DNA of 64,000 nt from an uncultured Gammaproteobacteria bacterium. Its GTDB lineage: Bacteria > Pseudomonadota > Gammaproteobacteria > Nitrosococcales > Methylophagaceae. The stretch covers positions 310,001 through 374,000 of the forward strand of contig CAJIZI010000003.1 of the NCBI GenBank assembly GCA_905181885.1, in the 5' to 3' direction. Each line of letters starts with the position of its first letter. Positions within the stretch are counted from its first letter, which is position 1. This document shows positions 33,445-35,139 of this stretch, piece by piece. Position numbers and translations under genes: made by a program. Below the pieces are notes generated by a model. The model searched no databases, had not been told where the DNA came from, and saw nothing but the letters and a program-made list of their open reading frames with translations.

Positions 33445-33598
33445 AGAACTCTCTATCTCATCCCTTTCAAAATTTCATCTTACGTACTCGACATACTAAT
33501 GCTTAGCATTAAATAAAGAATTATTACTACAAGAAAATAATCATTTGACACAAGAGCTTTAGGTATACTTTTAAATTTCTTAATAAGTTTAGAACTTA

Positions 33599-33620
33599 AG
33601 CTACTCGCTTATGAGTAGCT
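33599..33620 (-). other. Perfect hairpin just after the WYEAN-repeat gene
   Basis: AGCTACTC, a 6-base loop, and GAGTAGCT form an 8-bp perfect stem 9 bases downstream of the repeat-protein stop codon on the minus strand. The bases that follow are AT-rich but have no continuous T run, so it may be a weak terminator or a 3'-end stabiliser between this gene and can. Confidence 0.4.
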
Positions 33621-33628
33621 AAATACCT

Positions 33629-34237
33629 TCACTTATCTTTTTGTTTTTCTCGTGCTATTTTAACGTTAGCTTCGTACCATTTTTTCTTAATATTTTTTGT
33701 TCGTGCGAGGCTAATGTTAGCTTCATACCATTTTTCTTTCACTCCAGCATGAGGGTCAACTATTAAATTTGCCTCATACCAGGGTCTGTTGGCACGAGCA
33801 ATCCTTGCCGTAGCTAGGTTTGCTTCATACCAATGTTTTTTTGTATCACTGGTTCTTTCTTCATTAAATTCATACCAATGCTTTTCTGTAACTAACTGGT
33901 CTAAATTAGCTTCATACCATTTAGTTCGGCTCACACGTGCAACCTCTAAATTAGCCTCATACCATTTTTTCGTGATCTCAGCATCTAAGCTATTATCAAG
34001 GTTAGCTTCATACCAAGGTACTGTTGCTGATTTCTGTTGCTGATTAGCTTCATACCATTTTGCACGTGTTGCCTTAAACGAGGACTCAGCTTCTTTGAGA
34101 TTTGCCTCGTACCACTTTTTCTTAGTATCTAGATGTTTTGTCATATTTGCTTTATACCAGGGTTTAATTCTATTTTTAGTCGTTTCTTCCTGATGCCTAT
34201 CAGACCAGATTGTATTAGCATCTATTGTTGTGCTCAT
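33629..34237 (-). CDS. WYEAN-repeat protein, 202 residues, unknown function
   Basis: I do not recognise a family. The protein is built from eleven copies of [KPH]-W-Y-[EK]-[AF]-N, with tryptophans at 27, 42, 61, 75, 92, 107, 121, 136, 153, 170 and 187; nine copies are exactly WYEAN, one is WYKAN (first) and one WYEFN (seventh). The unit is about 14-19 residues, with a loose consensus WYEANL-x-x-A-R-x-x-R-x-K-K. It has no cysteine, one glycine, no signal peptide and no membrane helix, and is strongly charged. The codons of the motif vary synonymously (TAT/TAC, GAA/GAG, GCT/GCA, AAT/AAC), so selection appears to act on the peptide. An AAGGGA site six bases before the ATG supports the start. It lies between coq7 and a carbonic anhydrase, with no modifying enzyme adjacent. 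Confidence 0.85.
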   Translation of the reverse strand: MSTTIDANTIWSDRHQEETTKNRIKPWYKANMTKHLDTKKKWYEANLKEAESSFKATRAKWYEANQQQKSATVPWYEANLDNSLDAEITKKWYEANLEVARVSRTKWYEANLDQLVTEKHWYEFNEERTSDTKKHWYEANLATARIARANRPWYEANLIVDPHAGVKEKWYEANISLARTKNIKKKWYEANVKIAREKQKDK

Positions 34238-34500
34238 AGTCTGTCCCTTGATACCTATTTAATACCTACAAGACTGATATTAACTCAGAAACACTCTAAA
34301 TTCCAACTCAACATTCTTCTAATTAAATCTTGTTTTGTTCCCAAAGTTAGCGTGCAGAGTTCTTCTTACCTTGATTTTCAAACTGAAATTAACCCTGATA
34401 AGCTAATGAGCAAAGAAATTTAACCTCTAGGAGCTACTGTCAAGCTCGTAAAGATTTATTACAAATCAGCATTTATCATCATATAGCTTATGTCATACTG

Positions 34501-35139
34501 CTAGATACGATAACTACTAGCAGTCATTATTTTCGAGACTAATGACATAGCTATCTTTATTGACTTTGGTAAATCAATGCCTCCTGCTTCTCGAGCGACT
34601 TTGCCGTGGTGAGCCTCATCTATTTTCATTTGTTCTAAAATAGCATGACTTTTAGTATCATCCTGGCAGAGCTTCTCTAAATGTTCATCTATATGTTTGA
34701 CAACTTGGGCTTCTGTCTCTGCAACAAATCCTAAGCTCCATTTATCTCCTACTCTTCCTGCAACTGCACCCAGTATAAAAGAACCGGAATACCACAAAGG
34801 ATTCAAAATGCTCGTGTGCCCTCCGAGCTCGGTTAGACGTTGATTGCACCATACTAAATGATCATTTTCTTCAATGGCGGCTTGTTCCATTGTTTCTCTA
34901 ACACCCGGTAATTTTGCAGTCAATGCTTGGCCTTGATACAAAGCTTGTGCAGAGACCTCTCCTGCATGATTAACTCGCATCAACTTTATTGCCTGTTGTC
35001 TTTCTTCAGCAGTCAATATTGGAGCGGGTAAGTCATGCCCTGGTTGGGTTCTACTGCTATTTTTTGGGGTGTCTAGTACAGTTTTAATTGCTCTATCACA
35101 CTCTAAAACAAAGGTATCGATAATATTATAATTTCGCAT
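34501..35139 (-). CDS. coq7: Demethoxyubiquinone hydroxylase
   Basis: Di-iron monooxygenase that performs the C6 hydroxylation near the end of ubiquinone synthesis; membrane-associated. Ferritin-like ligands are visible: E in NHAGEVSAQALYQGQ, EENDH, E in AETEAQVVKHIDEH, and EAHH in KIDEAHHGKVA. 212 residues, typical of bacterial Coq7 (as opposed to UbiF). Its presence implies aerobic ubiquinone-based respiration. Transcribed alone; 263 bases separate it from the WYEAN-repeat gene downstream. A short inverted repeat overlaps its stop codon. Confidence 0.94.
   Translation of the reverse strand: MRNYNIIDTFVLECDRAIKTVLDTPKNSSRTQPGHDLPAPILTAEERQQAIKLMRVNHAGEVSAQALYQGQALTAKLPGVRETMEQAAIEENDHLVWCNQRLTELGGHTSILNPLWYSGSFILGAVAGRVGDKWSLGFVAETEAQVVKHIDEHLEKLCQDDTKSHAILEQMKIDEAHHGKVAREAGGIDLPKSIKIAMSLVSKIMTASSYRI

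Follow-up and report, generated by a model that had tools for sequence, protein, structure and literature searches.

A conserved eleven-unit WYEAN-array protein of the Methylophagaceae and its likeness to the repeat of phage nucleases

Repeat arrays in phage nucleases and related systems

Phage proteins of the HNH/endonuclease VII type (PHROG 1035 and 7091; Xanthomonas phage FoX2 gp61 and Vibrio phage 1.133.O gp04 are examples) carry tandem arrays of a short, charged, helical unit. The same tandem layout and the same charged helical make-up are found in a protein encoded within a stretch of 64,000 nucleotides from an uncultured member of the Methylophagaceae, a stretch that we call the window. 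The units of both share the column order basic-basic-[WY]-x-[E]-x-N-x-E-x-[AVI]-[RA]. In the phage HNH proteins the array lies between a CxxC/zinc-finger-like segment and the nuclease, its period is nearly constant at 15 residues, its net positive charge is greater and its units are more uniform, whereas the Methylophaga protein possesses no other domain, has mixed spacing and keeps its units in a fixed order. The same unit is also found C-terminal to the nuclease in arrays that follow GIY-YIG domains (IMGVR_UViG_3300037400_003633, loci L133/L164; also L184), which differ from the Methylophaga protein in that a catalytic domain is present and the array is short. Gene20 of the Chlorobiaceae phage CV-1-33 is likewise free-standing, with about eleven units in 204 residues, but its period is strictly 15, its units are nearly identical and it is a phage gene situated beside ERF/Gp157 genes. 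At L137 (positions 595-1209) and at L162 we recorded a phage array that stands alone, is made up of about eleven 15-residue units with hardly any difference between them and lies next to Gp157 and ERF genes. There is no Pfam model for the phage array and no relative of it in the PDB, and a search of open-access papers found no literature on either the WYEAN motif or the phage array.

A search with a consensus array yielded 20 viral array proteins. Thirteen of them carry HNH-like or GIY-YIG signatures, recognized partly with Pfam or PHROG and partly by motif only; one more is HNH-like by eye and six have no such signature. The string KWYEAN is spelled exactly in some of the viral contigs (L165, L172, L176 and L178). 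One Methylophagaceae assembly includes a phage-like contig (G019:C159) on which a protein composed of a CxxC segment, a 15-residue array and an HNH-like part (L159, 3857-4600, minus strand) is encoded beside a terminase-like gene, and phages that infect this group of hosts may therefore carry such arrays.

The linkers CsoS2 and EPYC1 offer another point of comparison, since in each a single protein carries several short motifs. No sequence relation between these linkers and the Methylophaga array was detected, and the window's genome has no Rubisco.

The array gene and its eleven units

The features of the locus are as follows.

33629 to 34237, minus strand: WYEAN-array gene, stop codon included, with its ATG at 34237 and a product of 202 amino acids.
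33641 to 34165, minus strand: super-repeat of about 175 residues (amino acids 25-199), comprising eleven units in fixed order, as defined by unit-to-unit comparison with orthologs.
33893 to 33970, minus strand: units 5-6 (amino acids 90-115, KKWYEANLEVARVSRTKWYEANLDQL), the best fit to the phage-nuclease repeat profile at 19.6 bits and also the stretch matched in the whole-genome search.
34244 to 34249, minus strand: Shine-Dalgarno-like AAGGGA, recognized from the sequence, 6 bases 5' of the ATG.
34276 to 34306, minus strand: promoter-like element TTG-N21-TAATATC, 39-69 bases 5' of the ATG, which follows a pattern shared by most copies in the family.

A preliminary description of this locus had reported eleven motifs spaced by 14-19 residues in a cysteine-free protein of 202 residues, preceded by a ribosome-binding site, and had argued from synonymous variation between the copies that selection acts on the peptide. 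All of this holds at the coordinates given above. The WY[EK][AF]N motifs begin at residues 27, 42, 61, 75, 92, 107, 121, 136, 153, 170 and 187, and the successive spacings are 15, 19, 14, 17, 15, 14, 15, 17, 17 and 17, so that a period of 15 accounts for only 3 of the 10 and spacings of 14, 17 and 19 make up the others. Across 20,000 shuffled versions of the protein the mean motif count was 0.002 and the highest was 1. The eleven motifs are written with nine different 15-base spellings, and the dN/dS values reported below likewise agree with selection on the peptide. The protein is basic (pI 9.35) and about 12% of its residues are aromatic.

Of 38 upstream regions taken from the family, 34 have the pattern TTG-N19-22-TANTATC, compared with 0.36% of shuffles, the TTG usually lying about 60-69 bases before the ATG; the 34 regions come from related copies and are not 34 independent observations. 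The conserved promoter-like element suggests that the array gene is transcribed on its own.

Searches of Pfam, NCBIfam and the PDB produced no credible match to the window protein, which upholds its earlier description as a protein of no known family. The PDB matches to NarQ, Cadmus and a xylanase were at chance level and were discarded. A Pfam search of the relatives likewise gave no credible domain, and by Pfam no zinc finger, HNH or GIY-YIG nuclease domain is present in the window protein or its relatives.

The homologues range from about 230 to 450 residues and contain the super-repeat once, once plus a part, or twice; the window protein is of the single form. When 488 aligned ortholog units were compared with the units of the window protein, 332 of them (68%, with 9% expected by chance) were most similar to the unit in the corresponding position, and for units 1, 2, 9 and 10 this was almost always so. 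The invariant columns include H35, K39, W42, Y43, N46, L47, R101, K106 and K167. A lysine before the W is conserved, a basic cluster precedes W-Y in most Methylophagaceae units, and the linkers HLDTKKK and DPHADIKKK are well conserved together with the motifs. Judged by sequence comparison, the WYEAN units are position-specific and not interchangeable.

This anatomy bears on a suggestion made in the preliminary description, that the protein is a multi-core precursor of modified peptides, cleaved at K/R residues between units. Tandem short aromatic motifs with K/R in between are what such a precursor might look like. On the other hand, the linkers are conserved along with the motifs, the units cannot be exchanged for one another and no boundary between leader and core can be discerned. 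The earlier remark that no maturase gene is adjacent was borne out on a larger scale, in that neither a maturase nor an exporter gene was found within about 6 kb on either side of the array gene in more than 30 genomes, and the sole nearby protease is LonC-like and absent from the window's genome. We regard a precursor as highly improbable.

The protein had also been thought to be probably disordered, a view that the structural predictions do not favor. For the window protein AlphaFold2 returned long helices of moderate confidence at residues 27-66, 86-110, 121-149 and 164-200 (pLDDT 67.9, pTM 0.22) and no overall fold. A relative with two super-repeats was again modeled with helices and no fold (pLDDT 46.1, pTM 0.16). 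Such helices might serve as a structural rod or spacer, stiff and charged, which would hold the nuclease domains apart in the phage proteins and, when alone, form rods or filaments by self-association. A period of 15 residues to four turns of the helix is known from right-handed coiled coils (PMC9858780, PMC4786415), there is a modest excess of opposite charges at i,i+3, and a fixed unit order would suit self-assembly. However, the four predicted helices have no hydrophobic stripe, their moments being below the shuffle mean (p 0.87-0.995), and this absence of amphipathic character argues against coiled coils, whether heptad, hendecad or pentadecad, and against membrane-binding helices, both of which we rejected. 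The spacing is moreover variable. In the family as a whole 15 is the commonest spacing (307 of 725), 14, 17 and 19 are also common, and Pro/His breaks are present. Together with the low pTM of both single-chain models, which gave no confident tertiary fold, these features make a rod or spacer unlikely.

Conservation in the family and the gene neighborhood

A first search for relatives of the array gene found them in 33 of 59 genomes, and a profile search found the gene in 53 of 57 Methylophagaceae genomes, so that the frame, whose conservation the preliminary description had left to be checked, is conserved in relatives. Named matches belong to Methylophaga and to uncultured Methylophagaceae or 'Piscirickettsiaceae'. 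Neither the 6 other genomes of the order nor approximately 365 others of the class yielded the gene, and a tblastn search of phage and plasmid records with the whole window protein gave no match. Four Methylophagaceae genomes are without the gene: G022 (1.2 Mb, 84% complete) and G029 (1.1 Mb), both of them small, G031, the sole representative of a fourth genus, and G418 (85% complete). In related pairs dN/dS was 0.011-0.16, with substantial synonymous divergence. The array gene is real and under strong purifying selection. The family sequences, 13,118 residues in all with some near-duplicates included, contain no cysteine. A paper on the DMS proteome of Methylophaga thiooxydans mentions many unknown proteins among those expressed (PMC6548844).

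The usual gene order around the array is Coq7, a PilZ protein, a LonC-like protease, a small exported protein that we call c1, the WYEAN gene, a metallo-beta-lactamase-fold hydrolase, a beta-carbonic anhydrase, BamE, Fur, RecN, NadK and Ndk. This order holds in most family genomes, some of which lack the protease and the hydrolase. At window positions 33445-35139 the protease, c1 and the hydrolase are all absent and the array gene is kept. Across the 1.5 Mb of the window's genome the LonC-like protease is matched by no more than a short Lon-type stretch and no relative of c1 was found, although 51 of 57 family genomes have c1. The protein c1 has no Pfam model and follows the pattern LPPVPxEPIYFEPPVV ... 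SC..LD..I..LxPxxYxxxPxFYxD ... KAxKxCFE; its gene was seen directly upstream of the array gene at 32 loci (for example L016:5499-5903). In several other gammaproteobacterial families relatives of c1 occur beside HtpG-like, ABC-transporter-like and cysteine-synthase-like genes, with no WYEAN array.

Candidate partners were examined against these distributions, and none was retained. The protein c1 is missing from the window's genome and has relatives elsewhere without the array, and the window's genome also lacks the LonC-like protease, which is unlinked elsewhere. The carbonic anhydrase is uncoupled from the array gene by presence and absence: the gene-bearing genomes G013 (99% complete) and G018 (93%) lack it, and G029 and G031 have it without the array gene. 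A Rubisco-condensing linker of the CsoS2/EPYC1 kind was discarded likewise, because no RuBisCO large subunit was found in the window's genome and because no indicative Pfam or NCBIfam match was obtained; the large subunit is absent from 26 of 53 gene-bearing genomes, and RuBisCO is present in the same G029 and G031. Across the family, RuBisCO large-subunit genes occur in 29 of 57 genomes and in all four genera, yet many near-complete genomes are without them. Since these candidate genes are uncoupled from the array gene, the neighborhood is best regarded as synteny and not as an indication of function.

These observations also bear on the idea that the protein is a multivalent protein scaffold. 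The fixed-order units would then bind one or more protein partners, other than Rubisco or carbonic anhydrase, and condense or organize them in the cytosol, and the likeness to the phage arrays would come from a shared helical unit and not from a shared ligand. Position-specific units, a near-neutral charge balance with invariant W, Y, N and L, strong purifying selection and the helical segments predicted by AlphaFold2 are all in keeping with such a role. Nevertheless, no partner gene travels with the array, whose neighbors are unrelated housekeeping genes, the window's genome lacks three genes that flank the array elsewhere, and carbonic anhydrase and RuBisCO are uncoupled from it by presence and absence. 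A protein scaffold is thus possible, if somewhat doubtful. Of the scaffold through W-Y motifs that the preliminary description proposed, the part that survives is a multivalent array that binds something, which is the most natural reading, and the part that finds no support is a Rubisco or carbonic anhydrase partner. The tally of gene neighbors that it recommended brought out no functional partner gene. Profile searches matched the repeat unit to the repeat of phage HNH/GIY-YIG nucleases, which that description did not mention.

The phage-nuclease repeat and a possible nucleic-acid ligand

The match arose from searches of several kinds. When viral contigs were scanned with the family profile, the one relative obtained was a GIY-YIG nuclease whose C-terminal array includes KKWYEANKEKKKESHRKWCEANKDK. 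A tblastn search with an idealized WYEAN array retrieved phage HNH/endonuclease VII proteins and the free-standing phage array. The phage 15-residue repeat, which is mostly located between a CxxC segment and an HNH domain, has the consensus R-K-[YW]-[RY]-E-[EQA]-N-[KP]-E-K-[VIL]-[RA]-E-x-x. The window protein scored 23.6 bits against a 30-position profile of the phage arrays. When the profile was built without the free-standing phage array, the score was 19.6 bits, a value that none of 2000 within-unit permutations reached. This null, in which positions were shuffled inside all units alike so that composition, periodicity and conservation were preserved, was also applied to nine other family members; for 7 of them the real score was unreached in 500 trials and the remaining 2 failed.

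To these results may be added those obtained with A3, a phage-only profile of 45 positions, whose first row is a consensus written by us and whose other 35 rows are natural. In the window's genome the array gene was the only locus that A3 matched (E 4e-6), and every gene-bearing relative searched was matched as well. At E<=1e-4 only three of 229 class genomes gave a match, in each case at the array gene, and among 398 phylum genomes A3 found the array gene and one other charged-repeat protein. In that other protein, 273 residues long (L161:1234-2055, genome G739), charged W-rich repeats precede a C-terminal part of a different kind. Profile-profile comparison gave a probability of 93.7% and E 1.8e-7. 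The reverse search, in which the narrower WYEAN profile was run on phage proteins, was weak, and PHROG scans of the family proteins gave no strong match. Taken together, these comparisons make it probable that the resemblance is real and that the phage-nuclease unit is what the free-standing Methylophagaceae array is built from. Common descent with the phage array would account for it more readily than convergence on a charged helical repeat.

What might such an array bind? The arrays accompany nucleases that act on DNA, they are basic and helical, and in the Methylophagaceae a basic cluster precedes W-Y in most units; nucleic-acid binding is therefore the simplest reading. For the phage arrays themselves, DNA binding is inferred from their position in nuclease proteins. 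We tentatively favor the view that the Methylophagaceae protein, as a free-standing and host-fixed array of the phage-nuclease type, may bind nucleic acid multivalently. The protein would be cytosolic, multivalent and mostly helical, the helical state in the cell being surmised from the predictions. The K-K-[K]-W-Y cluster of each unit would touch nucleic acid through backbone charge and aromatic stacking, and the protein would thereby bind or bridge DNA or RNA along its length. Several observations weigh against nucleic-acid binding, namely a low net charge per residue (+0.05 on average in Methylophagaceae arrays vs +0.14 in phage arrays), the weak reverse search, the failure of 2 of 9 family members in the permutation test, the lack of a strong PHROG match and the mixed spacing. 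The invariant aromatic residues and the fixed order of the units would, moreover, suit a protein-binding scaffold just as well.

A bolder version of the nucleic-acid reading is that an array from a phage homing/HNH nuclease lost the nuclease and became a domesticated host protein in the ancestor of most Methylophagaceae. The array has neither zinc finger nor nuclease in these bacteria and resides in a single-copy chromosomal gene, where its eleven units would have become position-specific; the nuclease may have been lost or may never have been present. The domesticated protein would coat or bridge nucleic acid, with the fixed unit order encoding a defined architecture. We offer this history as a conjecture that is rather less likely to be right than nucleic-acid binding as such.

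Repeats of this kind are already represented in phage databases inside nuclease families, and what is new here is a phage-nuclease-type repeat in the form of a free-standing, host-fixed and order-specific protein. An orphan protein thus becomes a testable case, conserved and strongly selected in a family of methylotrophs and built from a unit that is missing from Pfam and the PDB yet recurs on phage nucleases. Its ligand would reveal the role of a common phage-nuclease array and whether part of a phage became a host protein. If that ligand is a protein, the array would be an unusual multivalent scaffold of fixed order, and if the domestication reading is true, it would represent a new, lineage-specific class of nucleic-acid-organizing protein.
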